In this document: positions 575 to 60,615 of the stretch, piece after piece
Position numbering within the stretch: the stretch's first letter is position 1
How the letters are laid out: every line of letters starts with the position of its first letter
Assembly (NCBI GenBank): GCA_945866095.1
Contig: CAMBGA010000001.1
Coordinates: 36,600 to 100,599 of the forward strand
Source of the DNA: Spirosoma fluviale
GTDB taxonomy: Bacteria; Bacteroidota; Bacteroidia; Cytophagales; Spirosomataceae
Direction: 5' to 3'
Length of the DNA: 64,000 nt
The notes under the pieces: generated by a model
Told to the model about the DNA's origin: nothing
The model's database searches: none
Seen by the model: the letters and a program-made list of their open reading frames with translations, nothing else
Program-made: the position numbers and the translations under genes

Positions 575-683
575 GCGGATCAGTCCATTTTTGGCAAAGC
601 GTAAAAAAGAGCGACACATATTAAATAATCTGTTAAAAAATCAGAGTAAAATCAAAATTTTACATCATGATCAACTTAAACCT

Positions 684-1457
684 ATGAAAAAACTTAAAAG
701 CCGATTAAAAAATGGGGAAACCTTGCATGGTTGTTGGCTCAACCTCGGTAGCCCCTTAACCGCGGAGATTGTTGGCCTATCTGGATTTGATTGGGTGTTA
801 ATTGACCTAGAGCATGGTGCCGGATCAGAAAAAGAGGCTTTGGCGCAGATGCAAGGGCTCCAACATACACCTGCGGGAATCATTGTTCGGGTGGAAAGTA
901 CTGAACCCCAGCGCATTCATCGGGTTTTAGACATGGGAGCCGAAGGAGTTATGTGTCCCAAGATAAATAATCTGGCCGAAGCGAAAAAAGTAGTGAATGG
1001 CTTATATTATCCACCGATGGGCCAGCGCGGCGTAGCAAAAATGGTGAGGGCCACACAATTTGCCCAAAATTTTCAAAGCTATTACGAAACCTCTCAAGAA
1101 AATATTTTAGGAATTGTTCAAATTGAAACCAAAGAGGTCTTAAATCACGTCGACGAAATCGCAAATTTAGACGGGGTGGATGTGCTTTTTATAGGCCCGG
1201 CAGATCTTTCGATGGAGTTGGGTATTTTTGGCCAATTCAATCATCCTGAATTTTTAGCGGCGGTAGAAAAAACGATTAAGGCCGCAAATAAAGCGGGCAA
1301 AGCAACGGGCATTTTATTTTTTAATCCAGAGGAATATTCCAAATACCATCAAATGGGCATACAATTTATTGCCTGCGGCGCCGATGCTACTTTTGTGGCT
1401 GATGGGGCTAAAAACATGGTAGAAAAATTAGCAAAACTTAGATCTCAAGCATCATGA
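684..1457 (+). CDS. HpcH/HpaI aldolase family protein (2-keto-3-deoxy-glucarate aldolase-like)
   Basis: ORF 591-1457; ATG at 684 (MKKLKSRLKNGETLHGCWLNLGSP) fits the family start. Motifs VLIDLEHG, MGAEGVMCPKI, IGPADLSMELG. Confidence 0.88.
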   Translation: MKKLKSRLKNGETLHGCWLNLGSPLTAEIVGLSGFDWVLIDLEHGAGSEKEALAQMQGLQHTPAGIIVRVESTEPQRIHRVLDMGAEGVMCPKINNLAEAKKVVNGLYYPPMGQRGVAKMVRATQFAQNFQSYYETSQENILGIVQIETKEVLNHVDEIANLDGVDVLFIGPADLSMELGIFGQFNHPEFLAAVEKTIKAANKAGKATGILFFNPEEYSKYHQMGIQFIACGADATFVADGAKNMVEKLAKLRSQAS

Positions 1458-2902
1458 TATTAGATCCTATTATTTTATTGGCGATTGGAATAGTTTTAGT
1501 CGTTGGGGGTATTATTGGTTTAAAGCTACATCCATTTTTAGCTCTTTTATTAGGTGCTTTTGTTGTCGCTATTTTGACACCCGCTTCTATATTAGAACAG
1601 TTTGCCCTGTCAAAAGGGATGGACGCAGGCGCTGCATTATCCTTTTCTAAAAAAAGTGTGGGCGAACGAATAGCCACCGAATTTGGGAATACCTGTGCTA
1701 AAATAGGCATATTGATTGCCATGGCTGCGATCATCGGGAAATGCATGTTGGAATCCGGTGCGGCTGAGCGTATCATCCGATCTTTATTAAAATTTACGGG
1801 CGTGGATAAAGCCCCATTTGCCTTTCTTTTTGGCAGCTTCTTTCTGGGAATTCCTGTGTTTTTTGACACGGTGATATTTTTAATGATTCCCCTCGCCAAA
1901 GCCATGACTTTACGAATCGGCAAAAATTATCTACTCTTGATATTGTGTATTATGTCGGGTGCCGCAATGGCAAATTCATTAGTTCCACCAGCACCTGGGC
2001 CACTTTTTTTAATTGGCGAAATGCACATACCGATCGGCTTAATGATGGGTTGCGGAATCGTTGTCGGTTTTTTCACCGTATCAGCGGGCTATATTTTCTC
2101 CGTTTGGGCGAACAAAAAATGGCCCATTGAATTACGGGATTCGGTCGATGCAAAACTGGAGGATCTTAAAAAAATATCAGCCAAAGAAGATCAAAATTTA
2201 CCTGGATTAGGGGTTTCTTTACTGCCAGTCATGATTCCTTTAGTGCTCATTTGTTTAGATACGGCGATTTCAAATTTCTTAAAAGGGGCTAATTCTGTAG
2301 ATGCGGGAAGCTTATTTAATCAATTTGCGGCGGTCGTTAAATTTTTTGGAGATAAAAATATTGCCATCATTTTAGGGGGAGTGGCTGCCCTAGGAGTTAT
2401 GGCAAAAAATAAAAAGGATAAGGGGCAAAGCCTAACGCCATTTGTGCAGACGGCTTTAATGAGCGGGGGAGGAATTATTTTAATTACGGCAGCTGGTGGG
2501 GCTTTTGGTGGGACACTCCAACAAACCGGCATTAGTGCTAAAATTGCCGAATTGACCGCGGGGTACCAAATGGCTTTAATTCCGATGGCATTTTTTATCG
2601 CTGCTGTGGTTCGTACGGCACAAGGTTCGGCCACTGTGGCGCTGATCACGGCTTCAGGAATTTTGTCGGGGATGGCAGGTCAGTCCAATTTAGCGTTTAA
2701 TCCAGTATATATTGGATTAGCGATTGGCTGCGGATCCAAATTAGTCCCTTGGATGAATGATGCCGGCTTTTGGATATTTTGTAAATTGAGCGACCTATCA
2801 GAAAAGGAAGCGCTTAAAACAATTTCCCCGCTCTTAGTAGTGATGGGTTTAACAGGTTTAGTAGTCATTTTAATTGGGGCCAAATTATTCCCCTTGATTT
2901 AA
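1454..2902 (+). CDS. GntP-family gluconate/sugar-acid:H+ permease
   Basis: 482 aa, multiple TM helices, GntP-like 'AQGSATVALITASGI' and 'KLVPWMNDAGFW'; 4-nt overlap (ATGA) with upstream aldolase. Confidence 0.88.
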   Translation: MILDPIILLAIGIVLVVGGIIGLKLHPFLALLLGAFVVAILTPASILEQFALSKGMDAGAALSFSKKSVGERIATEFGNTCAKIGILIAMAAIIGKCMLESGAAERIIRSLLKFTGVDKAPFAFLFGSFFLGIPVFFDTVIFLMIPLAKAMTLRIGKNYLLLILCIMSGAAMANSLVPPAPGPLFLIGEMHIPIGLMMGCGIVVGFFTVSAGYIFSVWANKKWPIELRDSVDAKLEDLKKISAKEDQNLPGLGVSLLPVMIPLVLICLDTAISNFLKGANSVDAGSLFNQFAAVVKFFGDKNIAIILGGVAALGVMAKNKKDKGQSLTPFVQTALMSGGGIILITAAGGAFGGTLQQTGISAKIAELTAGYQMALIPMAFFIAAVVRTAQGSATVALITASGILSGMAGQSNLAFNPVYIGLAIGCGSKLVPWMNDAGFWIFCKLSDLSEKEALKTISPLLVVMGLTGLVVILIGAKLFPLI

Positions 2903-2909
2903 TTTACAC

Positions 2910-3770
2910 ATGGAAAATATTGGATTTATTGGTTTAGGGATCATGGGAAAACCTATGGTATTGAATTTATTGAAAGCAGGCTTCTCTGTTTCTGTACTTG
3001 AAAAAAGTGCTGCGGCAAAGGAGGTGCAATTATCAGGAGCCAAACTTTGTGCTTCTCCTAGATTGTTGGCAGAATCAGCAGACACGATTATTACGATGTT
3101 GCCGGATTCACCTGAAGTGGAGTCGGTTTTGTTTGGAGACGAAGGGATTGTAAGCACGATGAAAGAAGGCCAAATTTTCATTGACATGTCAACAATCTCG
3201 CCCCTAATGGCCCATAAAATTCATGCCAAATTATCGAAAATTGGCGTTGACGCATTGGATGCTCCTGTTTCCGGGGGCCAAGTAGGTGCCGAGGCGGCAA
3301 CTTTATCTATTATGGTGGGTGGATCTTCAGAGGCATTTAACAAGGCATTACCTATTTTTCAAGCGATGGGTAAAAACATTGTTCACATTGGCAAAGCGGG
3401 AGCTGGCCAAATTACGAAGGCCTGCAACCAAATGATTGTCGGCATGACGATACAAGCCGTTTCCGAAGCTTTCACTTTGGCGAACCAAGCAGGGGTAGAT
3501 TTAGAAAAAATGCGCGAAGTTTTACTGGGGGGATTTGCTCAAAGTCGGATTTTGGACTTGCATGGCCAACGGATCATTGATCGAAATTTTAAACCCGGCT
3601 TCAAAATTAAGCTGCATAATAAAGATATGAATATTGCTTTGGAGACTGGAAAAGCATTAAATGTGGATTTAATGGGTACGGCCCAAGTAGCCCAACAAAT
3701 GAAAAAAGCGGTGGACGTGGGGAATGGAGAATTGGATCACAGCTCTTTGGTATTGTTATTAGAAAAATAA
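2910..3770 (+). CDS. garR: NAD(P)-dependent beta-hydroxyacid dehydrogenase, tartronate semialdehyde reductase-like
   Basis: N-terminal Rossmann 'IGFIGLGIMGKPMVLNLLKAG'; 'DAPVSGGQVGAEAATLSIMVGG'; 'GAGQITKACNQMIVG'; genomic context. Confidence 0.85.
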   Translation: MENIGFIGLGIMGKPMVLNLLKAGFSVSVLEKSAAAKEVQLSGAKLCASPRLLAESADTIITMLPDSPEVESVLFGDEGIVSTMKEGQIFIDMSTISPLMAHKIHAKLSKIGVDALDAPVSGGQVGAEAATLSIMVGGSSEAFNKALPIFQAMGKNIVHIGKAGAGQITKACNQMIVGMTIQAVSEAFTLANQAGVDLEKMREVLLGGFAQSRILDLHGQRIIDRNFKPGFKIKLHNKDMNIALETGKALNVDLMGTAQVAQQMKKAVDVGNGELDHSSLVLLLEK

Positions 3771-3777
3771 AATAAAT

Positions 3778-5082
3778 ATGTCGTATACTGCAGGACCCCG
3801 CATTAAGGAAATTCACATTACCCCCATCGCGATTGTCGACCCTCCATTATTGAATGCTGCGGGCTTACATGCTCCTTATGCCTTGCGTACGGTTTTGGAA
3901 ATTGTGACCGAGGATAACATTTCAGGCATTAGTGAAATTCCCGGAACTAAGGATATTGATGCGGCTTTGGAAGAATCAAAAAAATTGTTGATCGGCCAAG
4001 ATGTGTTTCAATTAAACCAAATTCGGCATATTTTAGAACAGGCCTTTGGAACAGATTCGGTGGCTGACCGAGGATTAGCTCCTTGGGACCAACGAAAATT
4101 AGTGCATATTTTTAGTGCGGTGGAGGTGGCTTGCATGGACATCATGGGCAAGGTTACCGGAAAACCGATTGTCGATTTATTAGGCGGAAAGATGCGTGAC
4201 CGGGTTCCTTTTTCGGCCTATTTATTTTACAAATATGAAGGTGCTGGCGGCGAACTAGGTTTCGGCCTCAATCCAAATGCTACGGGTTGGGATGCAGCCC
4301 GACAAAAAAGCGCATTAAATCCAGAAGAGATAGTTGCTCAAGCGAAAGCGATGTGCAAGGAATTTGGTTTTCAATCCATCAAATTAAAAGGTGGAGTTTT
4401 TGAACCTCGTCAGGAAGTGGATGCGGTGATTGCCTTGCATGAAGCATTCGGTAAAAAATACCCCTTACGAATTGACCCAAATGCTCTTTGGACCGTTGAA
4501 ACATCCATAAAATATGGGAAAGAAATGGAGCCATATTTAGAGTATTTGGAGGATCCTGTTCGAGGCCAAGAAAATATGGCGATGGTTCGTAAGGCTTTAA
4601 ACACACCTTTGGCCACCAATATGTGCACAACCTCTTTTGGAGAAATTCCTAGGAGTATTGAAATAGGCGCCGAGGACATCATTTTGAGTGACCATCATTT
4701 TTGGGGGGGCCTACGTGCGTCGATGACATTGACGGGTATTTGTGGAACTTTTGGCCGAGATTTGTCCATGCATTCCAACAGCCATTTAGGCATATCACTG
4801 GCAGCCATGGTGCATTTAGGTGCGGCATTGCCCAAAATGACTTATGCGTTGGATACGCATTACCCATGGCAGTCGGACGAAATTATTATAGGCGGGCGCA
4901 TGAAATTTGAGGATGGTTCGGTCGAAGTGCCTAGCGAACCTGGTTTAGGAGTGGAATTAGACCGAGTGGCTTTAGCGGCCTTGCATCAAAACTATTTGGC
5001 CTGTGGACTAACCAAAAGAAATGATGAAATTGAAATGCAAAAAGTTAATCCGGATTGGACTTTCAAAGCCGTTCGTTGGTAA
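3778..5082 (+). CDS. gudD: Enolase-superfamily glucarate dehydratase-like protein
   Basis: 'LNAAGLHAPYALRTVLEIVTEDN..GISEIPG', KxK motif 'SIKLKGG', 'RIDPNALW', 'EYLEDP', 'SMHSNSHLGISLAAMVHL' match glucarate dehydratase landmarks. Confidence 0.87.
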   Translation: MSYTAGPRIKEIHITPIAIVDPPLLNAAGLHAPYALRTVLEIVTEDNISGISEIPGTKDIDAALEESKKLLIGQDVFQLNQIRHILEQAFGTDSVADRGLAPWDQRKLVHIFSAVEVACMDIMGKVTGKPIVDLLGGKMRDRVPFSAYLFYKYEGAGGELGFGLNPNATGWDAARQKSALNPEEIVAQAKAMCKEFGFQSIKLKGGVFEPRQEVDAVIALHEAFGKKYPLRIDPNALWTVETSIKYGKEMEPYLEYLEDPVRGQENMAMVRKALNTPLATNMCTTSFGEIPRSIEIGAEDIILSDHHFWGGLRASMTLTGICGTFGRDLSMHSNSHLGISLAAMVHLGAALPKMTYALDTHYPWQSDEIIIGGRMKFEDGSVEVPSEPGLGVELDRVALAALHQNYLACGLTKRNDEIEMQKVNPDWTFKAVRW

Positions 5083-7829: not shown

Positions 7830-8336
7830 ATGAAAAGACGCGAATTAATAAAATCGATTGGTTTAACTGCTGCGGCCACCACCATATTGCCAAATTGGCT
7901 ACAAGGTTGGTCGGTTCAAAAGCTGACACCTTCTGTCGTTTTTAGTGAAGATCAAAAAGATAAGCTATCTCTAATTGCCGGAACCTTCATTCCCGAAGGT
8001 GCTGAAAAGGGAGCAAATGGAGTTGGAGTAGGTAAATTTTTAGATGTATTATTTGCCGACTGCTTCACGGCGGCAGATCAAAATAAAATTAAGGAATTTT
8101 TATTGGAAGTTGACCAACTCGCCAAACAGTTATTTCAGCAATCATTTGGCCAATCGACCCAAGAACAGCGGGAGAAAGTTCTTCAAAATTTGGCTGCAAA
8201 CTCCACACATAAATGGGTGGCAGACACCTTAAGAAATGAGACGATTCGTGGATATACCACTTCAGAATATGTTATGGTTAATTATTATCACTATGTAATG
8301 GCGCCTGGATTTTATCATGGTTGCGCCGCAGTTTAA
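7830..8336 (+). CDS. Gluconate 2-dehydrogenase subunit 3 family protein (Tat-targeted small subunit)
   Basis: N-terminus MKRRELIKSIGLTAAATTILPNW (twin-arginine-like); 168 aa; directly upstream of GMC oxidoreductase. Confidence 0.85.
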   Translation: MKRRELIKSIGLTAAATTILPNWLQGWSVQKLTPSVVFSEDQKDKLSLIAGTFIPEGAEKGANGVGVGKFLDVLFADCFTAADQNKIKEFLLEVDQLAKQLFQQSFGQSTQEQREKVLQNLAANSTHKWVADTLRNETIRGYTTSEYVMVNYYHYVMAPGFYHGCAAV

Positions 8337-10042
8337 TGATGGCAAATTTCAACATAGATAGCAAAAAGAAATTCACCTATGACGCAATTGTCATTGGCTC
8401 TGGAGCGAGTGGTGGTTGGGCCGCAAAGGAACTTTGTGATCGCGGCTTAAAGACATTGGTTTTGGAGCGTGGGCGCCAAGTGAAACACGTGGAGGATTAT
8501 CCAACTGCCTCTAAGGCTCCTTGGGAATTCCAACATCGAGGAACGGTTCCTTTAGCCGATCGAGAGGGATTTTCGAATCCTATTTTTTTAAGAGAAGAAA
8601 CGAAACATTGGGCATTACCGGATGATGAGCAACCCGTGGTTTACGAAAAACCGTTTCGTTGGACGCGCGGATATCATGTCGGAGGCAAGTCACTTTTATG
8701 GGCTAGGCAAACTCAGCGATGGTCCGATTTTGATTTTGAAGGGCCTATGAGAGATGGTTTTGCAACGGACTGGCCTATTCGATATAAAGATATAGCCCCT
8801 TGGTATGACCATGTAGAAAAGTTTGCGGGCATCGCTGGATTTAATGATAATTTGCCTGAATTGCCTAATAGCATCGTCCAACCGGGTTTCGAGTTGAACT
8901 GTTTGGAATCACATTTTAAAGAAGTTTTAAAGAAGGAATATGGAAATCGTTGGGTGGTCGGTGGCCGTTGTGCCCATTTAATGGATCCTCAAGAAATTCA
9001 TTTCCAACAAGGTCGAGGGCGTTGCATGAGTCAAAAAATGTGTAACCGCGGATGTAATTTTGGGGCATATTTTAGTAGCAATGCTTCCACGTTGCCATGG
9101 GCAGCTAAAACCGGAAATTTAACCCTTCGTCCAAATTCCGTGGTGCATTCCATCATTTATGACAACAAATCGAATAAGGCCGTTGGCGTACAAATCATCG
9201 ATTCTATTTCCAAAGAAATGGTTCCCTATTACGCAAAGGTAATTTTTGTCAATGGTTCGACGATCAATAGCAATGCGATTTTATTAAATTCAGTCTCTTC
9301 TAGGTTCCCCAAAGGGCTTGGAAACGACTCAGGCTTAATGGGTCATTTTATTGCTTGGCATAATTATCGAGGAAGTGCAAATGCCTCCTTTGATGGATTT
9401 AAGGACAAGAAAACGGAGGGAGGAAACCCGAGCAATGCCTACATCCCTAGGTTTAGAAATTTACACAAACAAGAAACGGATTTTTTAAGGGGTTATGCGA
9501 CGGGAATAGGCGGAGGCCGAGGCGAGTATTCTTCTCGAGAAGGAATGGGCGATGATTTAAGGAAAAATTTGTTGGCCCGTAAAATGGGACCCTGGAATAT
9601 ATCGGCTTGGATGATGGGGGAAACGGTTCCGTCCGAGGAAAACCACATCCGACTTCATCAAGATTTGAAAGATAAATATGGAATTCCTCAAATCATTTTT
9701 TCTTGCGATTGGACTGAAAATGATGTGAAAATGGTCCAAGATTTTAGAGATCAAATGCAAGAAATGTTTGAAAAAGCGGGATATAAAAATATACGAACGG
9801 CGGATTCAAAATCTGCGCCAGGTGCTGATATTCACGAGATGGGAGGAGTTCGAATGGGAAAAGACCCTAAAAATTCTATCTTAAATGAATGGAATCAGGT
9901 GCATGGGTGTAAAAATGTTTTTGTCTCGGATGGTGCTTGTATGACATCTACGAGTACTCAAAACCCTACCTTAACCTACATGGCTTTTGCGGCAAGAGCG
10001 GCAAACCATGCAATAGACGAATTAAATAAAAAGAACCTATAA
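8336..10042 (+). CDS. GMC-family FAD-dependent oxidoreductase (sugar/glycoside dehydrogenase-like large subunit)
   Basis: ORF opens at TTG 8321; ATG at 8336 overlaps upstream stop by 1 nt. 'YDAIVIGSGASGGWAAKELCDRGLKTLVLERG', C-terminal 'HEMGGVRMGKDPKNSILNEWNQVHGCKNVFVSDGACMTSTSTQNPTLTYMA'. Confidence 0.9.
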   Translation: MMANFNIDSKKKFTYDAIVIGSGASGGWAAKELCDRGLKTLVLERGRQVKHVEDYPTASKAPWEFQHRGTVPLADREGFSNPIFLREETKHWALPDDEQPVVYEKPFRWTRGYHVGGKSLLWARQTQRWSDFDFEGPMRDGFATDWPIRYKDIAPWYDHVEKFAGIAGFNDNLPELPNSIVQPGFELNCLESHFKEVLKKEYGNRWVVGGRCAHLMDPQEIHFQQGRGRCMSQKMCNRGCNFGAYFSSNASTLPWAAKTGNLTLRPNSVVHSIIYDNKSNKAVGVQIIDSISKEMVPYYAKVIFVNGSTINSNAILLNSVSSRFPKGLGNDSGLMGHFIAWHNYRGSANASFDGFKDKKTEGGNPSNAYIPRFRNLHKQETDFLRGYATGIGGGRGEYSSREGMGDDLRKNLLARKMGPWNISAWMMGETVPSEENHIRLHQDLKDKYGIPQIIFSCDWTENDVKMVQDFRDQMQEMFEKAGYKNIRTADSKSAPGADIHEMGGVRMGKDPKNSILNEWNQVHGCKNVFVSDGACMTSTSTQNPTLTYMAFAARAANHAIDELNKKNL

Positions 10043-10051
10043 ACGAAAAAA

Positions 10052-10903
10052 ATGAAAAAGAACACCATTATCTTGGCCCTTTTGGGAATCATGTTGAGCT
10101 TAGGCACGCTGCAAGCTCAGAAACTTTACACCTACCCGATAGGTGTTCAAACGTATACGTTTAGAAAGCATTTCCCAGTGAAAGGCGTTGAAAAAACACT
10201 TGATTTAATTAAAGAATTAGGCTTTACCGAAGTAGAAGGATCTTCCAATGGAATGGGCTTGGAGGAATACAAAAAATTATGTGATGATAGAGGAATTTCT
10301 ATTCCATCGACGGGAACGGATTTTAACGAACTAATCAAAGACCCTATGGCGGTCGTTAAAAGGGCAAAAACGTTAGGCTCTAAATTTGTCATGTGTCCTT
10401 GGATTCCGCATAAAAAAGGCCAATTCTCGTTAGCTGATGCACAGAAAGCCGTTGAGGTTTTTAATAATGCGGGAAAGGTTTTAAAGGAAAATGGAATAAC
10501 GTTGTGTTACCATGATCATGGATTTGAATTCCAACCTTTTGAAGATGGGACTTTGTTGGATTACATGATTAAAAATACGAATCCACAATTTGTTTCTTTT
10601 GAAATGGACGTGTTGTGGACCATACATGGCGGTGGTGCGGATATGCCAGTAAAGCTGCTGAAGAAATATCCAGGCCGTTTCAAATTGATGCACGTAAAAG
10701 ATCTTCGCAAGGGCATCAAAGGTGATTTGACAGGTGGTACTCCTGCTGAAAATGATGTGGCCGTGGGTGCTGGTCAGGGCAACTGGAAGCAGATCATCAA
10801 ATTAGCTAAAAAAGGAGGAGTTGAGCACTGTTTTATTGAAGATGAAAGCGATAAGGAATTAGAAAATATACCTTTAAGCATTGCATTTTTAAAGAGTTTA
10901 TAA
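10052..10903 (+). CDS. Secreted sugar phosphate isomerase/epimerase-like TIM-barrel protein
   Basis: Signal peptide MKKNTIILALLGIMLSLGTLQAQ; 'GITLCYHDHGFEFQPFEDGTLLDYMI', 'MDVLWTIHGG', 'HVKDL', 'FIEDE' of the xylose-isomerase-like fold. Confidence 0.87.
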   Translation: MKKNTIILALLGIMLSLGTLQAQKLYTYPIGVQTYTFRKHFPVKGVEKTLDLIKELGFTEVEGSSNGMGLEEYKKLCDDRGISIPSTGTDFNELIKDPMAVVKRAKTLGSKFVMCPWIPHKKGQFSLADAQKAVEVFNNAGKVLKENGITLCYHDHGFEFQPFEDGTLLDYMIKNTNPQFVSFEMDVLWTIHGGGADMPVKLLKKYPGRFKLMHVKDLRKGIKGDLTGGTPAENDVAVGAGQGNWKQIIKLAKKGGVEHCFIEDESDKELENIPLSIAFLKSL

Positions 10904-22483: not shown

Positions 22484-23353
22484 TTAACTTACGATAAATT
22501 CTTTTGAATATTGTAAGGGTGTTTTTCCGGTGATCTTCTTGAATGCATTATTGAAATTTGGAAAATTATTGAATCCGGCCTCATAGCACACTTGGGTTAC
22601 TTGGTATTGATTTTCCTTGATTAATTTACAGGCGTACTCAACGCGTATTTCATTCAAGAAATGGGAAAAGTGCTTTCGTGTTCTATTCTTAAAATACCGA
22701 CAAAATGAATTAGGACTTAAGTTGGCCACCTCGGCAATTTCCTCGATCGTAATTTTGCGTTTAAAATGTTTAGCAGAAAAATTATAGATCGAATTTAATC
22801 GAGCGGTTTCTTTATCGCTCGGATTATGTTCTAAAATCCGGGTCGCTAACATGTCTATTTCCGGACTTTGAGAAAGGGGGTCTAATAATTTAAGCAGTTC
22901 AAGAATGAGATTGCTTTTGGTGTCGTCCAGCATATGAAGCATTTGCTTGACAACAGCGGCTTTGGTTTTGCCTGTAATTCTTAGGCCAAGTTTTGATTTT
23001 TCAAGCAGTTGCTTGACGTATCTATTTTCAACGAGGTCAAAAAAATCAGGGCCAAAAATAGCTGGATCAAAATGGATCACGACTGCTGACACTCCCAATT
23101 CGGGATTATTCTGGAAATAAATGTTGTCACTTCTCAAATAGTGTGGGCAATTTGACCCGATTAAAAGCAGGTCGCCATCTTGAAAACGTTGGATACTGTC
23201 CCCCACAAACTGAGTTCCTATTCCTTTATCAATTAATAATAGTTCTATTTCTGGATGGTAATGATACTGATTATAAAAATAACTAACGTTGTCTCGTCGA
23301 ATGCTAAAGGAGCGAAGTGACTGAGGAGAAACTTTTAATAGGTGAGCCTTCAT
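22484..23353 (-). CDS. AraC-family transcriptional regulator with N-terminal cupin domain
   Basis: N-terminal 'YHYHPEIELLLIDKGIGTQFVGDSIQRFQDGDLLLIGSNCPHYLRSD'; C-terminal 'ITIEEIAEVANLSPNSFCRYFKNRTRKHFSHFLNEIRVEYACKLI...VCYEAGFNNFPNFNNAFKKITGKTPLQYSKEF'. Confidence 0.93.
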   Translation of the reverse strand: MKAHLLKVSPQSLRSFSIRRDNVSYFYNQYHYHPEIELLLIDKGIGTQFVGDSIQRFQDGDLLLIGSNCPHYLRSDNIYFQNNPELGVSAVVIHFDPAIFGPDFFDLVENRYVKQLLEKSKLGLRITGKTKAAVVKQMLHMLDDTKSNLILELLKLLDPLSQSPEIDMLATRILEHNPSDKETARLNSIYNFSAKHFKRKITIEEIAEVANLSPNSFCRYFKNRTRKHFSHFLNEIRVEYACKLIKENQYQVTQVCYEAGFNNFPNFNNAFKKITGKTPLQYSKEFIVS

Positions 23354-23576
23354 AAATTTAAGTTTGTCACGGATTTTGACATTTCTCTTTTGCCCAATTT
23401 AATATTTATGCCAAAATAATTTATTTAGTTGAATTTTCCATTTAATTATAGCATTAAATAAATCCATTTTTTTGTAAGAATTTTATTATTTCCATTGCCG
23501 ATTAATTATCAGTGTTTAAACCATGGCTTTTAATAGGTACGAGTAAGCCTTATTAATTAGATTTTTTATTAAATTA

Positions 23577-23608
23577 ACCACAGGTATTTTTGCCTGTGGT
23601 TTTTTTTT
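23577..23608 (+). terminator. Intrinsic terminator on + strand immediately upstream of the ceramidase-like gene; candidate leader attenuator
   Basis: ACCACAGG-TATTTTTG-CCTGTGGT followed by T8; the divergent neighbour is on the - strand and no + strand gene lies just upstream. Confidence 0.7.
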
Positions 23609-23627
23609 CTTTTAAATGTTTCAAATT

Positions 23628-24911
23628 ATGATGCATCGCTTTATTTGTCTTTGCTTATTCGTGATGGCTAGCTTGTCGGTTCAAGCGCAAAATATACGTG
23701 TAGGTGCCGCCGTTCGGGTCATTACCCCGGACCCCCTTTTGCCCGTGTCGGGTGGTATCGGGGTGCCACATCCTGTCAAAGAAAAGCGTGGAGATTTGTT
23801 TGCCCGAGCGATGGTTTTTGAACAAGGAGGTACTCGATTTGCGATCGTCAATGTCGATAATTTAGGTTGGACTTCCATCTTAGGCAACCGCTCCCGTGCA
23901 CTCATTAAGGGCATCGCTCCTGAAAATATCTTGATTGGCGCCACTCATACGCACAGCGCTCCTGATGCCTATGGTTTTCCAGATATGTCGGGGAAATCTT
24001 ATGCCGATCTAAAATATTTGGATTGGTGTGTGAAGCAAATTGCCGATGCGGTGAATGAGGCATTAGCTAATCTCCAACCGGCGTTTTTAAAAGTCGCCAT
24101 GGACGATGCGAAAGGTAAAATTGCCTACAACTATTATGCCCCAGCACTTTATGATCCTCGTTGCGGTGTCATTCAAGCGATCGCAACTTCAGGTCCACGC
24201 ACAGGAAAACCAATCGCGACTTTAGTAAATTATGCCGTTCATCCAGAGGTCTTAGGAAATAGTCGGGGAATTTTAAGTCCCGACATGATTGGACCCTTGT
24301 ACCAAAAAATTGAATCTACCATAGGCGGTGTGGCCTTATTTATGAATGGCGCCCAAGGAGGTATGGTTACCGCAGATACCCGATTGGAATATGGAAAGGA
24401 AGGCCAAGGGCAGAAAGAAGCCAACACCTGGGAAGAATGCATTCGAATCGGAGAGCTTTTAGCAAACGAAGCGATGCGCATTGTAGCGGCTGCTCCTGTA
24501 CTCGTTAACCCAGCACTCTATTGTACCTCTAGAAAATTAGAATTCCCCATCGATTCTGAAATCATGCGGTATATTTTGAAAAAATCTCCTTTAAAATATG
24601 AGGGAGGAAAAGAAAATTATGTGACGACTCAGCTCAATCTTTTGAATATTGGGCCCGCACAAATCTTAACCGTTCCTGGCGAGGCATTACCTAATGTGGG
24701 ATATTATGTGAAAAGAAATATGAATACCAAAATGCCATTTCTATTTGGGTTGACCAATGACGCCTTTGGGTATATGTTGGCCAAAGTAGATTTCAATTCC
24801 TTCAAACGATATGAATATGTTTCGCAGACTTCCCTCGGTGAAATGACTGCTGAAATTTATATGGAACAGGCTCTAAAATTAGTGAAGGAAAGTCCCAAAC
24901 CACAGAATTAA
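23628..24911 (+). CDS. Neutral/alkaline ceramidase-like secreted hydrolase
   Basis: ORF from 23616; ATG 23628 or 23631 gives signal MMHRFICLCLFVMASLSVQAQ. 'IRVGAAVRVITPDPLLPVSGG', 'DNLGW', 'IGATHTHSAPD', 'VHPEVLG'. Confidence 0.78.
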   Translation: MMHRFICLCLFVMASLSVQAQNIRVGAAVRVITPDPLLPVSGGIGVPHPVKEKRGDLFARAMVFEQGGTRFAIVNVDNLGWTSILGNRSRALIKGIAPENILIGATHTHSAPDAYGFPDMSGKSYADLKYLDWCVKQIADAVNEALANLQPAFLKVAMDDAKGKIAYNYYAPALYDPRCGVIQAIATSGPRTGKPIATLVNYAVHPEVLGNSRGILSPDMIGPLYQKIESTIGGVALFMNGAQGGMVTADTRLEYGKEGQGQKEANTWEECIRIGELLANEAMRIVAAAPVLVNPALYCTSRKLEFPIDSEIMRYILKKSPLKYEGGKENYVTTQLNLLNIGPAQILTVPGEALPNVGYYVKRNMNTKMPFLFGLTNDAFGYMLAKVDFNSFKRYEYVSQTSLGEMTAEIYMEQALKLVKESPKPQN

Positions 24912-24937
24912 AATAAATCTCCAAACCTATTTACATC

Positions 24938-26008
24938 ATGAATCATCGCTTTAATGTATTGGCCATTTTTTGCTTACTAAGTTTCCAAATATTCGCCCAA
25001 ACCGAGAAAACCTATGCCGAGAAATTAGGATTTCCAAAAGGGAAAAAGGTATTAATTTTCCACGTGGATGATTGTGGTATGTCTTATTCTTCGAATCAAG
25101 GCGCCTATAAATCGATGGAGCAGGGTGTAGCTACTTCTTGTAGCATCATGATGCCATGTCCTTGGGCTGCTAGCTTTATCCATTATTTACAGAAAAATAA
25201 TCCCAAAGCAGATGCTGGATTACACCTGACTTTAACTTCGGAATGGAAGGATTATCGCTGGCCTGCGCTGGCTGGGTTCCAACAAGTTCCCGGATTAAGC
25301 GATGGAGATGGTTGCCTATACCATAGCGTGGAGCAGGTCATTAAAAATGCAAGCCCTGATGAAGTGGAAAGAGAAATTAGAGCGCAAGTAGAACGTGCCA
25401 AACGTTTAGGTTGGGCCCCTTCACATCTAGACTCCCACATGGGAACCCTATTTGCGTACCCTCCGTTTTTGGAGCGCTACGTGAAAGTGGGCATTGAATT
25501 AGGTATCCCAGTGATGTTTCCAGGTGGCAATAATAAAATGATGATTGAGTCGATGAACTTGCCTCTGATCAAGAAAATGAAGGCAGAGGGAACTTGGAAA
25601 GAGGGCACAAAACTAGAAGCTAAACGCTATGGCCTAACGGACTTATTTGGCGAAGCTAGTAAAATGGGCGAGAGACTTTGGAATGCCGGACTTCCTGTGT
25701 TAGATGACCTACATACGTTTAGTGGTGATTGGAAGCCTGCAGGCAATCCTACGGCGGATGAATGGGGGAAATACAAGGCCCAACAATGGATTGAGACGAT
25801 CAAAAATATGAATCCGGGAGTAGCCATGATGATTGTTCACAGCAGCGACATTACGGAAGAATTTAAATATGTATCTGGGTCTGGTGGTTCGCGTTTGGCC
25901 GATATGAACTCGATGATGAACCCTGATTTAAGGGCTTATATTGAAAAAGAGGGAATCATTTTAACGACTTTCCGCGAGTTATTGGAACGACGTAAAAAAG
26001 TCAAATAA
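24938..26008 (+). CDS. Secreted ChbG/HpnK (YdjC-like) polysaccharide deacetylase-family protein
   Basis: 'KVLIFHVDDCGMSYSSNQGAYKSMEQGVATSCSIMMPCPWAASF', 'DAGLHLTLTSEW', 'APSHLDSHMGTLF', 'HSSDIT'. Confidence 0.87.
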   Translation: MNHRFNVLAIFCLLSFQIFAQTEKTYAEKLGFPKGKKVLIFHVDDCGMSYSSNQGAYKSMEQGVATSCSIMMPCPWAASFIHYLQKNNPKADAGLHLTLTSEWKDYRWPALAGFQQVPGLSDGDGCLYHSVEQVIKNASPDEVEREIRAQVERAKRLGWAPSHLDSHMGTLFAYPPFLERYVKVGIELGIPVMFPGGNNKMMIESMNLPLIKKMKAEGTWKEGTKLEAKRYGLTDLFGEASKMGERLWNAGLPVLDDLHTFSGDWKPAGNPTADEWGKYKAQQWIETIKNMNPGVAMMIVHSSDITEEFKYVSGSGGSRLADMNSMMNPDLRAYIEKEGIILTTFRELLERRKKVK

Positions 26009-26009
26009 G

Positions 26010-27191
26010 ATGCGAAGATTATTCGTTTTAATACTCGCCTTAGGATTACCTTTTTTAGCGTTCACACAAAAATCAGCTAGTCCTGTGGTGGAATCCATGC
26101 TTATTTTTCCTGGACAGGAAAAACATGTGCATGGAAGTAGCATGGTGGCTTTGCCGAATGGCGATCTTTTGTCGGTGTGGTTTTATGGCAACGGCGAACG
26201 AAATTCAGACGATGTGAAGTTGATGGGCGCCCGATTACCAAAAGGAGCAAAAGCCTGGAGCGAACCTTTTTTAATGGCCGATACGCCTAACCTACCTGAT
26301 TGCAATCCCGTATTATTTTTAAACCAAAGCGGCAAATTGTTTTTAGTCTGGATCGCGGTGCAATCGAACCGTTGGGAACAATCAATTTTGCGCGTCAAAA
26401 CGACGACTAATTATACGAAACCCGGCGCTCCCATTTGGGAATGGCAAGACAATATCTTGCTAAAAATGGATGATCGGTTTGCCAAGGAAATTGCCACAAA
26501 ACTCAAGGCTTTACCCTCTCATGAGATTGGCTGGGCTGGTTACGCCCCCAAATACGACGAGATGATTAATGCGGCTGCGCTAGATCCCATGAAGCGAAAT
26601 TTGGGTTGGATGACTCGAATCAAACCCTTGCTGATAGGTGAAAACCGAATGGTTTTACCCTTGTATTCAGACGGATTTAACTTGTCCATCATGGCCATTT
26701 CAGATGACCAAGGATCCACATGGCATCCTAGTTTACCTGTCGTCGGTCGCGGACCCATTCAGCCTGCTTTGATCCGTAAAAAAAATGGAAATATCATGGC
26801 GTTTATGCGGGATAGTGGGGATGATCCTCCTCGCGTGCATATCAGTGAATCGACGGATTTAGGAGAAACTTGGACCCCGACGATCAAATCCGAAATACCC
26901 AATACGGCCAGTGTAGAATTGCTCGTTTTAAAAGATGGACGTTTGGCATTTTTAGGCAATGACATTGCAGACGGACGGTATCGGTTCCAATTATATCTTT
27001 CGGAGGATGAAGGGAAAATATGGAAATGGAAAATTCCCATTGAAAATGTAGAACCCGGAAAGGGCGGTTTTTCGTATCCCTCCTTAATTCAAACTCAAGA
27101 TGGGATGTTGCGCATGACGTATTCATCTCATGTGGGTACAGATCAAAAATCAATTAAATATGTGGTCGTTGACCCCTCAAAAATCAAATAA
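26010..27191 (+). CDS. Secreted sialidase-fold (BNR-repeat) protein
   Basis: Signal peptide; Asp-box-like 'SDDQGSTWHP', 'STDLGETWTP', 'SEDEGKIWKW'; 'GGFSYPSLIQTQDGMLRMTYSS'. Confidence 0.82.
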   Translation: MRRLFVLILALGLPFLAFTQKSASPVVESMLIFPGQEKHVHGSSMVALPNGDLLSVWFYGNGERNSDDVKLMGARLPKGAKAWSEPFLMADTPNLPDCNPVLFLNQSGKLFLVWIAVQSNRWEQSILRVKTTTNYTKPGAPIWEWQDNILLKMDDRFAKEIATKLKALPSHEIGWAGYAPKYDEMINAAALDPMKRNLGWMTRIKPLLIGENRMVLPLYSDGFNLSIMAISDDQGSTWHPSLPVVGRGPIQPALIRKKNGNIMAFMRDSGDDPPRVHISESTDLGETWTPTIKSEIPNTASVELLVLKDGRLAFLGNDIADGRYRFQLYLSEDEGKIWKWKIPIENVEPGKGGFSYPSLIQTQDGMLRMTYSSHVGTDQKSIKYVVVDPSKIK

Positions 27192-27192
27192 T

Positions 27193-29412
27193 ATGAAAAA
27201 AAGTATCGCGATATTTTTACTGTTTTTAAGTGTGGGTGTTTATGGGCAAAAAAAATCAACTCAGCCCGTGTATGTAGATAGACCCTACATGCAAGATTAT
27301 AGTGTGAAATACTATGCAAAAGATAGTCAAGTTGCGTTGAAATCTGCCTACGCGGATCGCAACGGGGCGATTAAAATATTTAGTTCGGCGGGGTTGATGC
27401 TGCCACATGATGGCCAATTTTTATACCCAGGCAGCTTGCTTCCAGATAAGCGAAACCGCACCAGTGCCCCTAAAAAAATTCAAAGCTTATTGGCCCATGA
27501 AAACCAATTTGTTTTTGTCGATGACAAAGCTATTTTTAGCCATGCTTGGGCCGGAACTCTGTATTCCACCCACGAATTGCCGGGTGCTAATTTGGCCGCG
27601 GGCGGGAACGATTTTACGTTTTTAATAAGTGATGGATATTCATTGCATTTGGTTAAAAAATCAAAGACTTTGTTTAAAGTGAATGTTCCGGGAGACCCAT
27701 TGTTGGCCATCAATTTTGACAAATCTACCGGGTATTTTTGGGTGCTTACTTCGAAAGGATTGCACCGTTTTGATGCGGCTACGGGCCAACTATCTTTATG
27801 GGTTTCCGGAAATAATTTAACGGCATTTGACGTGAAAGGAAATGAAGCTGTATTGGGAAGTAGTGATGGATTTTTTAAAGTGGAATTAGCTACGAAAAAG
27901 GCGGGGGCGCTCCAACAAAAAATTCCGGTGAAATCGATTTCAGCGGTAAAGATTTTAGGCGATAAAGTTTGGTTTGGATCTGCGAACGGAGCATTTGCTT
28001 TACGCAAAGATGGGAAGTTTGATTATTACCAAGGGGAGCGCTGGCTTCCAAGCAATGCCGTCACATCGATTAGCGAAGGGCCGAAAAATTCCGTATTGGT
28101 TTTAACGAAAGCAGGGCTGGGCCAAATTTGTTTTAAGTCGATGACCTTGCATGAAAAGGCGATGTTCTATGAGGCCCAAGTCCGGGACCGACATATTCGA
28201 AATGGCTTTAATGCACATCTGGATAATATGGATCATGGGAATATTACCACGGGATATTTATCCGATTCAGACAATGACGGTTTATGGACTTCCATGTATT
28301 TGGGCGGAGAGATTTTTAGGTATGCGGTGACGAAGGAAGCGGATGCATTAGCGAATGTACGCGAGGCTTTTGAGTCGATGGAAAGGTTATATACGGTTAA
28401 TCCGGTACCCGGTTTTCCTGCACGATCTTTTGAGAGGCGTGGATTTATTTCACAACTTTCAGATCCTGAGCGCTGGCAACATTCTCCGGAGCCCGAGTGG
28501 GACTGGAAATCTACCACCTCGTCAGATGAGGTGATCGGGCATATTTTTGCCTTTGGCGCTTTGGCAGAATTAGTGGATGTCCCTGATTTGCAAAAACGTT
28601 CCATCGTTTTGATTGACACGCTGATGTCACACATCATTAAAAACAATTGGTATTTAATTGACTATAATGGAAAACCTACTTTATGGGGGCGTTGGAATCC
28701 GGAGTATGTGAATGGCTTTCCGATCAACATTGGCGATCGTAAACTGAATTCATCCAATATTGTGGCGATGTTACAGACGGCTTATCGGTTTACAAAAAAA
28801 CCAATTTACAAGCAGAAGGCTTTTGAACTCATGCAAAAGCACGGATATTATGAGAATTTGATGCGTCCTATCAGCCAAATCGGTCATGCTCCTGATAGCG
28901 CTGATCCAAACGCAAAAAATCTATCCGACGGTTGGAATCACTCGGATGATGAAATGTATTATGTCGGGTATTGGGGTTTATATCGCTATGCTTTCAATGA
29001 TACGTTGAGAGCTAGTTTTAAAAAATCCATCATCGATCATTGGGAAATTGAAAGGCCTGAAAAAGAAGGTGCTTGGAATATTTTTACGGCCTTAACGGGT
29101 ACGGCCAAATTTGATTTAGATGAGGCGGCTTGGTATTTGAGGGAACATCCCATGGACTTGGTTGAATGGTCCATTCAAAATAGCCATCGGGGCGATATTG
29201 AAAAATTAGCGCCCAATTTTAGAGATCAAAAAACGAAAGAAGTTTTGCCTCCAGACGAGCGACCTGTCCAACGCCATAATGCAAATATGTTTAATATGGA
29301 TCGCAATGGTGGCAATGGAAATGCAGAGCATAGTGCGGGAGATATATGGTTATTGCCTTATTGGATGGGCAGATATTTAAAGGTAATTAGTGCTCCAGTA
29401 TCAGGAAAATAA
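27193..29412 (+). CDS. Secreted large protein, unknown function: N-terminal beta-propeller-like, C-terminal possible alpha/alpha-toroid
   Basis: ATG at 27193 with signal peptide (MKKSIAIFLLFLSVGVYGQ); repeated propeller-like blades to about aa 340, then helical region with 'NGFNAHLDNMDHGNITTGYLSDSDNDGLWTSMYLGGEIFRYAVTKE'. Confidence 0.7.
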   Translation: MKKSIAIFLLFLSVGVYGQKKSTQPVYVDRPYMQDYSVKYYAKDSQVALKSAYADRNGAIKIFSSAGLMLPHDGQFLYPGSLLPDKRNRTSAPKKIQSLLAHENQFVFVDDKAIFSHAWAGTLYSTHELPGANLAAGGNDFTFLISDGYSLHLVKKSKTLFKVNVPGDPLLAINFDKSTGYFWVLTSKGLHRFDAATGQLSLWVSGNNLTAFDVKGNEAVLGSSDGFFKVELATKKAGALQQKIPVKSISAVKILGDKVWFGSANGAFALRKDGKFDYYQGERWLPSNAVTSISEGPKNSVLVLTKAGLGQICFKSMTLHEKAMFYEAQVRDRHIRNGFNAHLDNMDHGNITTGYLSDSDNDGLWTSMYLGGEIFRYAVTKEADALANVREAFESMERLYTVNPVPGFPARSFERRGFISQLSDPERWQHSPEPEWDWKSTTSSDEVIGHIFAFGALAELVDVPDLQKRSIVLIDTLMSHIIKNNWYLIDYNGKPTLWGRWNPEYVNGFPINIGDRKLNSSNIVAMLQTAYRFTKKPIYKQKAFELMQKHGYYENLMRPISQIGHAPDSADPNAKNLSDGWNHSDDEMYYVGYWGLYRYAFNDTLRASFKKSIIDHWEIERPEKEGAWNIFTALTGTAKFDLDEAAWYLREHPMDLVEWSIQNSHRGDIEKLAPNFRDQKTKEVLPPDERPVQRHNANMFNMDRNGGNGNAEHSAGDIWLLPYWMGRYLKVISAPVSGK

Positions 29413-29436
29413 TTATTTTAGTCTTTTAATTTTAAG

Positions 29437-30735
29437 ATGATCAGTATTTGGGTGTTCATTAGTGTAGCCATTGTTTTATTGGTACTGTTCATTTCAGTAC
29501 TTAAACTACAGCCATTTATATCCTTTTTACTCGTTTCCCTGGGTTTAGGTTTAGCGAGTGGATTGACGACTAGCGACACGATTGTAGCGATCCAAAAAGG
29601 AATTGGCGGGACATTGGGCTCTATCATCCCCATCATTATTTTAGGGGCGATGATCGGCAAAATGGTCGCTAAAAGTCAGGCGACTACGGTCATTGCCGAC
29701 TGGCTGGTGGATGTATTAGGGCAAAAAAACTTGCCATTTGCCTTCATGATCATTGGCTTTATTGTCGGCCTTCCTCTGTTTTATTCGGTGGCATTTTTGC
29801 TGATGGCTCCTTTGGTTTTGTCTACAGCCCAGCGACATAATTTACCGGTGGTATATTTGGGTATTCCGATGCTCGCCTCTTTGTCCATTACCCAAGGATT
29901 TTTACCGCCTCATCCTGCGCCCTATTATTTAGTGACACATTTGCCAGGGGCCGACATGGGCATTACCTTGGGATTAGGAATCGTGATTTCAATTCCGGCG
30001 ATGCTGGCTTCTGGTTGGCTTTTTGGGAAGACATTGAAAAACATTCCTGCTTCTCCCATGTCTTTTGTGGAACCTCCCACGGCCGCGAAGGCGCCTAGTC
30101 TAAGGTCTAGTTTGTTCGTTTTATTATTGCCCGTGGGTTTGATTGCCATGCAATCTTTTGCCAAAAACCTTCATAATCCATTCCTCGAGTTTGTCGGCGA
30201 GCCGATCGTCGCGTTATTGATTTCATTGGGTGCTGCTTTATATTTATTGGGATTTAATCGGGGCATATCCTGGTCGGAAATGCAAGGTTGGTTATTGGAA
30301 TCCATCAAAGATATTTCTCCCTTAATGTTAACTTTTGGAGGTGCGGGAGCGTTTAAAGAAATATTGCAGGCGATGAAGGTGGGGGATGAGATTTTGAAAT
30401 TAACCCAACAAAGCACCCTGGATCCTTTAATTATTGCCTGGATGATTGCCGGGGTTTTACGGATTGTGACGGGCTCATCGACTGTTGCGGGGATCACTAC
30501 TGCCGGATTAATTCTACCTATTTTAAGTGCGAGTGGCGCTAATCCAAATTTAATGGCGCTGAGCATCGGTGCTGGATCTATGGTGCTATCTCATGTAAAT
30601 GATGCTGGATTTTGGTTATACAAGGAATACTTTGGCGTGACCATCAAAGATTCATTGAGATCATGGACCATTATGGAAACAATTTTAGCGGTCGTGGGAT
30701 TATTAGGAGTGCTCGTTTTACAAAATTATCTATAG
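29437..30735 (+). CDS. GntP-family gluconate/sugar-acid permease (second copy)
   Basis: 432 aa polytopic; 'RIVTGSSTVAGITTAGLILPIL', 'GAGSMVLSHVNDAGFWLYKEYF'. Confidence 0.9.
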   Translation: MISIWVFISVAIVLLVLFISVLKLQPFISFLLVSLGLGLASGLTTSDTIVAIQKGIGGTLGSIIPIIILGAMIGKMVAKSQATTVIADWLVDVLGQKNLPFAFMIIGFIVGLPLFYSVAFLLMAPLVLSTAQRHNLPVVYLGIPMLASLSITQGFLPPHPAPYYLVTHLPGADMGITLGLGIVISIPAMLASGWLFGKTLKNIPASPMSFVEPPTAAKAPSLRSSLFVLLLPVGLIAMQSFAKNLHNPFLEFVGEPIVALLISLGAALYLLGFNRGISWSEMQGWLLESIKDISPLMLTFGGAGAFKEILQAMKVGDEILKLTQQSTLDPLIIAWMIAGVLRIVTGSSTVAGITTAGLILPILSASGANPNLMALSIGAGSMVLSHVNDAGFWLYKEYFGVTIKDSLRSWTIMETILAVVGLLGVLVLQNYL

Positions 30736-30804
30736 GATTTCGCTAATCCTGACGGCTTTTGCCAAATTTTTCTTTTCTTGCAAGCTTAAACTAAACCTAT
30801 TGTT

Positions 30805-31557
30805 ATGAAAAAGTATACTATTTTATTTTTGATGGTATCTGTGGGGGCCATGGCGCAAATTGGCGTTGGCGCTAAAAAACCCAAAAATGCTGATATGATG
30901 TTTGATGGATCTCGGTCCATGTTAGATGAAAAATGGGCCTATTGGGAAGGACCACGCTTTGCAGCTCAAATGCCTATTAAATGGGAAATTGTTTCAGACC
31001 CCGCAGGTAAAGGAACCACGGTTTCGACCAATGATCCTGCTGGAGCTGGCGGAAAATATGGTTCAGCGGATATTGTTACTAAAAGAAAATTCCGCGATTT
31101 CAGGTTACACATCGAATTCTTTATTCCTTCTAAAGGGGGAAACTCAGGCGTTTATTTACAAAACAGATATGAAATCCAAGTCTTAGATGGTGATACCACG
31201 AAGCATGGAATGGCTGCGGTAATTAATGAAACCCCATCGCCTTATTATGCGTATAATGGAATTGGGAAATGGAATGCGTATGATATTCAGTTCCGTGCAG
31301 CCCGATTTAAAGACGGAGTTTTAACTGAAAAGCCGATGGTTACGATGTATTTCAATGGAAAAAAAGTACATAAAAATCAGATCATTAACCAAGTTTGGGG
31401 TGGCCCCAATTCGGGAATTGACGGCGGAAATAATGGCGGAAAAGGGATCACGGATTCTCCTCAAGGGCTGAAATTACAGGCCGAAGGACACGACGTTCGT
31501 TATCGGAATATTTGGATGAAAGATATGGATTTTGTTCAGGCAGCAACGGATTTTTAA
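30805..31557 (+). CDS. DUF1080 / 3-keto-disaccharide hydrolase-family secreted protein
   Basis: 'DIVTKRKFRDFRLHIEFFIPSKGGNSGVYLQNRYEIQVLD', 'GPNSGIDGG', 'GLKLQAEGHDVRYRNIWMKD'. Confidence 0.88.
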   Translation: MKKYTILFLMVSVGAMAQIGVGAKKPKNADMMFDGSRSMLDEKWAYWEGPRFAAQMPIKWEIVSDPAGKGTTVSTNDPAGAGGKYGSADIVTKRKFRDFRLHIEFFIPSKGGNSGVYLQNRYEIQVLDGDTTKHGMAAVINETPSPYYAYNGIGKWNAYDIQFRAARFKDGVLTEKPMVTMYFNGKKVHKNQIINQVWGGPNSGIDGGNNGGKGITDSPQGLKLQAEGHDVRYRNIWMKDMDFVQAATDF

Positions 31558-31602: not shown

Positions 31603-32646
31603 ATGATTCAAGTTTCAGGCTATGGCGCCTTAAATGCCACGTCTTCTATTGCTCCTATCGAATTTGAACGTAGGGAATTAGGGGAGAAAGATATTCTCAT
31701 TGACATTTTATATTGTGGGGTATGCCACTCTGATATTCACATGGCACGTTCTGAGTGGGGGCCTTCGGTGTATCCCATTGTTCCAGGCCATGAGATTGTG
31801 GGCAAAATTAGCCAAATCGGCTCTGGGGTAACCCAATTTAGAGTGGGCGAAATGGCGGGAGTAGGTGTTTTTATCGATTCGTGTCGGGAATGTCCATCAT
31901 GCAAAAAAGGCCAAGAGCAGTATTGTGATGAAGGGTTTACGCCTACCTATAATGGTTATTATCGAGATGGAGTCACGCCAACTTTTGGAGGGTATTCTAC
32001 TCAATATGTAGTAGATGAAGCATTTACTTTGCACATTCCCTTTACAAAAGAACTAGAACGTGTAGCGCCTTTATTGTGTGCAGGAATCACAACGTATTCC
32101 CCTTTAAAGTACGCAGGCGTAGGAAAAGGACATAAGGTGGCGGTGTTAGGCTTGGGAGGTTTGGGCCACATGGGAGTCAAATTTGCGGTATCCATGGGAG
32201 CGGAAGTGACCATGTTGAGCACTTCGCCTTCTAAAGAAAATGATGCCAAAATGTTAGGGGCCCATCATTTTGCTTTGTCGACCGACAAGGATCAAATGAA
32301 AGCCTTGCGTGGTAAATTCGATTTTATTTTGAACACAGTCGCGGCTAAATATGACTTAAATAAATTTTTGGATTTGTTGACCGTCGAAGGCAAAATGCTT
32401 TTGGTCGGAATACCTCCGGAAGACAATGAATTAGGGAGTGCCAAATTAATTTCGAGGCGTAGAAGCATCATAGGTTCTAACGTCGGCGGCATTGCTGAAA
32501 CGCAGGAAATGTTGGACTACTGTGCAGAGCATAATATTTTATCCGACGTGGAAATGATTCAAATGAAGGATATTAATGAAGCCTATACCCGTATCTCAAA
32601 TTCCGATGTGAAGTATCGATTTGTCATTGACATGGCGTCGATGTAG
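31603..32646 (+). CDS. Zn-dependent alcohol dehydrogenase, NAD(P)H (cinnamyl alcohol dehydrogenase-like)
   Basis: 'ILIDILYCGVCHSDIHMARSEWG', 'VPGHEIVG', 'CRECPSCKKGQEQYC', 'VAVLGLGGLGHMGVKFA'. Confidence 0.94.
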   Translation: MIQVSGYGALNATSSIAPIEFERRELGEKDILIDILYCGVCHSDIHMARSEWGPSVYPIVPGHEIVGKISQIGSGVTQFRVGEMAGVGVFIDSCRECPSCKKGQEQYCDEGFTPTYNGYYRDGVTPTFGGYSTQYVVDEAFTLHIPFTKELERVAPLLCAGITTYSPLKYAGVGKGHKVAVLGLGGLGHMGVKFAVSMGAEVTMLSTSPSKENDAKMLGAHHFALSTDKDQMKALRGKFDFILNTVAAKYDLNKFLDLLTVEGKMLLVGIPPEDNELGSAKLISRRRSIIGSNVGGIAETQEMLDYCAEHNILSDVEMIQMKDINEAYTRISNSDVKYRFVIDMASM

Positions 32647-32672
32647 TCAATAGTCTTTTAATCGTTGATTAA

Positions 32673-32708
32673 ATGCCTTTAGAAATTCATTTTTCTAGGG
32701 GCATTTTT
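32673..32708 (+). terminator. Intrinsic terminator after alcohol dehydrogenase
   Basis: ATGCCTTTAGAAA-ttcatt-TTTCTAGGGGCAT (13-bp stem with two G-U positions) followed by T-tract. Confidence 0.7.
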
Positions 32709-32806
32709 TCAATAGGATTTTGGACATTTTTTAGGTAGACAGTATGATTAGTTTGGTCTATTTGATCAAAATGCCTGACTACTTATTAAACCCGAATAAA
32801 TACTGT

Positions 32807-33307
32807 TTAAGATTTGGGACGGGGCTTCATTTTTAAGCTATCCGCTGGGTAAGTTGCTTTCAACATCGCCATTTGTGATTTGGCCCAGTTGACCAAAACT
32901 TCTCTTTGTTGGTCTGTCAAATTAGCATCTCCATGCAATCCTAAATACGTGTAAGAATGCATGGGCATTTCTTTCTCCTCTACTTGCTCGACAACCTCTT
33001 CTAATTTGTGATTTTGAACTGCGATCGATTTTTTTAAAAAGGTGGAGAAATTCAAATGTTTTTTTCCGTCATTAATATGGTGATTTAACCAAAACCCCAC
33101 AGGTTCAATATTGCTATACCATGGGTACGTAGACTTATTGGTGTGGCAATCATTACACGCGTTTTTCAAGATTACTTGGACGTCAGCAGGGATTTCGTAT
33201 TTTTTTGAAATATCAAATAGTTGATCATCCGAGAGATTTTTCTCTTGGGGGATAAATTGGATTGCGATTAGCAGGCCAATGATGCCAAGGGTTATTTTTT
33301 TAATCAT
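32807..33307 (-). CDS. Haem-binding domain protein (single CxxCH)
   Basis: 'LKNACNDCHTNKSTYPWYSNIEPVGFWLNHHINDGKKHLNFS' and N-terminal TM/signal. Confidence 0.87.
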   Translation of the reverse strand: MIKKITLGIIGLLIAIQFIPQEKNLSDDQLFDISKKYEIPADVQVILKNACNDCHTNKSTYPWYSNIEPVGFWLNHHINDGKKHLNFSTFLKKSIAVQNHKLEEVVEQVEEKEMPMHSYTYLGLHGDANLTDQQREVLVNWAKSQMAMLKATYPADSLKMKPRPKS

Positions 33308-59105: not shown

Positions 59106-59106
59106 T

Positions 59107-60609: not shown

Positions 60610-60615
60610 TTGTTT

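Follow-up and report, generated by a model that had tools for sequence, protein, structure and literature searches.

An AraC-linked locus of exported enzymes in Aquirufa has probably lost its SusC/SusD pair through a recent deletion

In the window, the whole 64,000-nucleotide stretch of DNA analyzed, a gene for an AraC-family regulator diverges from a run of genes for exported proteins. The window spans positions 36600-100599 of contig 1 in a genome whose genus includes Aquirufa aurantiipilula 15D-MOB, which identifies the source as a freshwater Aquirufa of the Spirosomataceae. Open reading frames and Pfam assignments agreed with the initial annotation on the coordinates, strands and types of all seven genes it had described. 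The features of the locus, including those belonging to a SusC/SusD deletion relative to the closest relative, genome G308, are:

22484..23353, minus strand: AraC-family regulator, divergent to the operon (Pfam HTH_18, 71 bits)
23354..23516, plus strand: araC-susC intergenic remnant, the former susC promoter region (94.9% identity to G308)
23514..23518, no strand: deletion junction, where two BLAST segments meet; about 5.04 kb (susC and nearly all of susD) is missing
23518..23556, plus strand: last 12 codons of susD, KPWLLIGTSKPY, and its stop; the translation is that of the G308 susD C-terminus
23576..23601, plus strand: hairpin with an 11-pair stem, then a T run, at the same position between susD and Cer in relatives
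23616..24911, plus strand: Cer, exported protein of the neutral-ceramidase fold (Foldseek E 9e-20 to 2zws; Pfam 30.0 bits)
24938..26008, plus strand: YdjC-family carbohydrate deacetylase, predicted to be exported (PF04794, 185 bits; PDB 8jqe, E 4e-40)
26010..27191, plus strand: BNR, exported sialidase-like beta-propeller of the BNR_2 family (PF13088, 138 bits; PDB sialidases, E 4e-7)
27193..29412, plus strand: NOV, exported protein with a beta-propeller and a helical domain (no Pfam family; AF2 model, pLDDT 88.6)
29437..30735, plus strand: GntP-family permease (TIGR00791, 402.8 bits; Pfam GntP, 402 bits)
30805..31557, plus strand: exported protein of the DUF1080 / 3-keto-disaccharide-hydrolase family (3keto-disac_hyd; PF06439, 94.7 bits)
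31603..32646, plus strand: zinc alcohol/aldehyde dehydrogenase (ADH_N, ADH_zinc_N), co-linear within the window's clade

The genes are closely spaced, with 26 bases between Cer and YdjC, a single base on either side of BNR, 24 bases between NOV and GntP, and 69 bases between GntP and DUF1080. The start of NOV was set at 27193; the listing of open reading frames extends it to 27130, into BNR. Downstream of DUF1080, the alcohol dehydrogenase gene is followed by genes for a haem-binding protein and a DUF6786 protein. At 32646-32807, between the dehydrogenase and the haem-binding gene, a segment of about 2.1 kb present in loci L052-L055 is absent; its ApbE-like and PepSY-like genes were named by judgement of their sequences, not from a search.

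Five of the products carry Sec-type signal peptides without a lipobox, in line with the secretion originally proposed for five proteins, and a profile search reported no T9SS C-terminal family for any of these five. Therefore, action in the periplasm is likelier than the extracellular degradation that had been suggested; the substrate would be an N-acylated amino-sugar conjugate.

The model of Cer (pLDDT 73) had significant PDB matches (<1e-3) to neutral ceramidases only. In common with these enzymes (PF04734; PDB 2zws, 4wgk) are the predicted fold and the motifs THTHS, HPE and PGE, the latter found in 11 of 11 Cer members. However, Cer comprises 431 amino acids rather than about 650-690, and its score with Ceramidase_alk (PF04734) is below the gathering cut-off of 32.1 bits. 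Moreover, G[DN]xSPN, the catalytic serine box of ceramidases, was present in none of the 11 members, which does not support a true ceramidase. Since the three motifs are present and the serine box is absent, Cer is probably a zinc hydrolase that has the ceramidase fold but a different substrate or mechanism.

The YdjC protein matched its family strongly (185.4 bits with PF04794, gathering cut-off 29.7), and the PDB entry it is close to, 8jqe, is itself a YdjC-family protein. It differs from YdjC/ChbG deacetylases in having a signal peptide and in scoring 67.6 bits where the ChbG equivalog cut-off is 227. BNR shares with GH33-like sialidases and BNR_2 proteins an Asp-box propeller, with three Asp boxes in each of 20 members, and its C-terminal half aligns with sialidases in the PDB. 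On the other hand, its N-terminal half is unaligned, and the RIP motif, which bears the first arginine of the triad, was found in 0 of 20 members, so that a true sialidase is not supported.

NOV was modelled confidently, with a propeller at residues ~32-317 and a helical domain at ~319-739. The propeller is related to Reg_prop sensor domains (3v9f/4a2l), such as those of BT4663 and BT4673 (PDB 4a2l, 3ott), but NOV has no kinase or DNA-binding part and is fused instead to a helical domain of no described family. Acidic and aromatic residues are strongly conserved in the latter. For this C-terminal domain, Pfam searches with 24 members gave nothing above noise even at E 10, no PDB sequence matched at E 10, and a structure search with the whole model returned matches to the propeller alone. 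Judged by its sequence, NOV thus appears to represent an undescribed family.

The GntP permease exceeded the subfamily cut-off of TIGR00791 (292.75 bits), and in the profile search it reached no single-substrate equivalog cut-off. The DUF1080 protein scored far above the gathering cut-off of PF06439 (26.8 bits). In other bacteria, 3-keto-glycosides are the substrates of DUF1080 proteins (PMC9007349), and the window protein resembles the 3-ketoglycoside hydrolases BT2157 and CCNA_01705 (PMC9007349) in having a single PF06439 domain and a signal peptide; unlike in those systems, no 3-dehydrogenase gene directly adjoins it. At 7830-10903, some 21 kb away from the DUF1080 gene, lie genes for a Gluconate_2-dh3 subunit, a GMC oxidoreductase and a xylose-isomerase-like TIM barrel, a cluster resembling LacABC-type 3-keto-sugar pathways. 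The window also contains a glucarate-type operon at 591-5082, encoding an HpcH/HpaI (GarL-like) aldolase, a second GntP permease, a GarR-like reductase and a GudD-like dehydratase, and a cluster at 58092-61521 encoding a BNR_2 protein, an SSF symporter and a DHDPS-family aldolase.

The initial annotation considered the absence of SusC and SusD to be a property of the system. The interval 22484-31557 indeed contains no intact pair, but it does hold a remnant of susD. In G308, intact susC-susD lies between araC and Cer, and sister genomes likewise carry susC (1130 aa) and susD (547 aa) there; the SusD of the intact loci belongs to the SusD-like_2 family. Positions 23514-23640 of the window match the 3' end of G308 susD and the susD-Cer spacer with 98.4% identity, and the AraC protein is 100% identical to the G308 copy adjoining intact susC. 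The missing pair is thus the result of a recent deletion that left a scar, while sister genomes keep the pair in place. The hairpin retained in the spacer keeps its position in relatives and differs in sequence; it possibly attenuates the enzyme genes relative to susCD.

Relocation of SusCD was rejected in view of the best SusC match in the organism's own assembled genome (G000), which is 49% as compared to at least 81% for orthologues in pair-keeping genomes, although this genome is a 2.48 Mb draft of 81% completeness in which a relocated pair might escape notice. A mobile element as carrier was rejected, as no plasmid match longer than 51 bases was found.

Three other Aquirufa genomes, G299, G307 and G295, are also devoid of the pair, and the deletion endpoints differ: in G308 coordinates, they are 2731/7776 in the window, 2799/7695 in G299, 2670/7781 in G307 and 2132/7301 in G295. 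The susC start and susD codons 509-547 are retained in G299, and susD codons 374-547 in G295. The pair is adjacent in G308, G315, G323 and the A. aurantiipilula group. The deletions of the window, G299 and G307 are nested; that of G295 falls outside this nesting. By endpoints alone, a single loss followed by later erosion would fit the window, G299 and G307, and the independence of the losses rests on trees. G308 with its intact pair was placed as sister to the window with bootstrap support of 99% in the tree of the YdjC-BNR-NOV block and 100% in the araC tree, which indicates that the loss recurred; the simplest reading is that the pair was lost at least twice, and probably three or four times.

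These data bear on the possibility that the locus was originally a catabolic system independent of SusCD and that the pair was inserted in relatives. The window and the three relatives without the pair would agree with such an origin. However, the in-frame 3' end of susD in the window and the susD fragments in G299 and G295 exclude it, since an insertion would have left no such remnants, and SusCD adjoins the core genes in other Spirosomataceae genera as well. An original design without SusCD is therefore ruled out by the remnant, and we assign this explanation a negligible probability.

Alternatively, the pair could be missing through errors of assembly or binning in draft genomes of mixed populations. 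G299 and G295 are metagenome assemblies according to their titles, G000 is incomplete, and in bin G324 the 5' region of Cer occurs twice, with one copy next to SusCD. Nevertheless, the longest string common to the parental breakpoints is 8 bases and out of register, too short for an assembler to join, so the collapse of a repeat during assembly is unlikely. Four genomes have four different junctions, and the flanking contig is continuous; an artefact is thus quite improbable.

It is also conceivable, albeit not what we favour, that the locus has been decaying since the loss of SusCD and that its other enzymes are now unused relics. The window has an intact regulator gene, as does G299 in the part covered, but an in-frame internal stop interrupts this gene in G307 and its N-terminal half is gone in G295; the ApbE-PepSY pair of relatives is another absence in the window. 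Against decay, the Cer, YdjC, BNR, NOV and GntP genes are open in all four deletion genomes, with low pairwise dN/dS values (0.01-0.09), which mostly reflect the time before the deletions and are no proof that the enzymes still work; a locus that lost the pair recently would look alike.

The set of genes is not confined to one strain. Neighbourhood comparison showed that synteny extends well beyond it, so the restriction to a single strain named in the initial annotation as a refutation does not apply. NOV was found in 145 and BNR in 110 of 223 Spirosomataceae genomes, and their co-occurrence (NOV in 104 of the 110 BNR-positive genomes versus 41 of the 113 BNR-negative ones; Fisher P = 9e-22) is not due to chance. 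When 290 genomes of the class were sampled evenly, full-length matches to NOV came solely from Spirosomataceae, and a scan of 85,462 species revealed at least 570 NOV-related stretches across Bacteroidota. Among 60 loci compared, BNR directly precedes NOV in 10 of 14 from Aquirufa and 22 of 46 others. The genes often stand in the order NOV-paralogue, YdjC, BNR, NOV; in many genera, susC-susD-Cer lies upstream of them or diverges from them. Spirosomataceae conserve YdjC-BNR-NOV as a core, which is often accompanied by SusCD, Cer and paralogues of NOV. Several Spirosomataceae carry two or three NOV paralogues in tandem, for example at L067:7923-14869. In G298, G292 and G310 (L056, L057 and L127), Cer is directly followed by NOV, and YdjC, BNR and adjoining SusCD are absent. 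GntP and DUF1080, which had been counted as parts of the system, lie next to the conserved set solely in the window's clade and are additions of this clade. The data do bear out one part of the original reading: together with the AraC regulator, the exported carbohydrate-linked proteins form a conserved set of catabolic appearance.

The operon encodes a protein of the YdjC deacetylase family and the sialidase-like BNR, and Pfam revealed no characterized glycoside hydrolase or lyase. In other genera, the neighbours of the locus include GH92, GH127 and DUF3748 proteins, as well as an SSF symporter with a DHDPS-family aldolase; they suggest complex heteroglycans, without settling the substrate. 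One candidate is a conjugate of an ulosonic acid of the sialic acid or Kdo type, where BNR would free the acid for use by the symporter and the aldolase. In favour of it, BNR is sialidase-like, and in Emticicia (L140, L148, L164) YdjC-BNR-NOV has as neighbours homologues of the SSF and DHDPS-family genes found at 59107-61521 of the window. But BNR is devoid of the RIP motif, and the aldolase falls below every equivalog cut-off, with mixed closest solved relatives, making this substrate unlikely.

Taken together, the locus is probably a SusC/SusD-fed glycoconjugate utilization locus of Aquirufa from which a single recent deletion of about 5.04 kb removed the pair. The ancestral order, as shown by comparison with relatives, is araC, divergent from susC-susD-hairpin-Cer-YdjC-BNR-NOV, followed by GntP-DUF1080-ADH in the window's clade. 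Like polysaccharide utilization loci (PULs) of the SusCD type in Bacteroidota, its ancestral form combined a regulator and a susC-susD pair with a series of exported enzymes linked to carbohydrates; the locus differs in the loss of the pair from the window, in the absence of characterized glycoside hydrolase or polysaccharide lyase families, and in NOV, for which no family has been described. SusCD would have brought in a glycoconjugate or oligosaccharide carrying N-acylated amino sugars. Once this is in the periplasm, YdjC and Cer may strip acyl groups, BNR and NOV may process the glycan, and GntP may take up a small sugar-acid-like product. Without SusCD, the enzymes would be limited to small substrates passing through porins, or the locus would be in early decay.

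As the initial annotation had supposed, the literature searched contains no named system of such composition; neither a published paper linking Aquirufa and PULs nor one combining ceramidase, Spirosoma and SusD was found, and there was nothing on point about SusCD loss or SusC as a phage receptor. The gene set is conserved and undescribed, yet it is a SusCD-type set from which SusCD itself was lost secondarily. More speculatively, NOV might be a new class of carbohydrate-active enzyme with a beta-propeller and a helical catalytic domain, defining together with the ceramidase-fold and YdjC proteins an undescribed Spirosomataceae pathway for an N-acylated amino-sugar conjugate, and the loss of SusCD in Aquirufa might have been repeatedly selected, for instance because SusC serves as a phage receptor or upon a switch to small porin-borne substrates; we hold this combined proposal to be doubtful.

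A locus read in a single genome can thus seem to be a new system, while a short scar and one sister genome reveal a lost importer. NOV represents a widespread Bacteroidota family whose C-terminal domain has neither a described family nor a solved relative. Whether the repeated loss of SusCD with retention of the enzymes in these freshwater bacteria reflects scavenging of small products, escape from phages or mere decay is a testable question.
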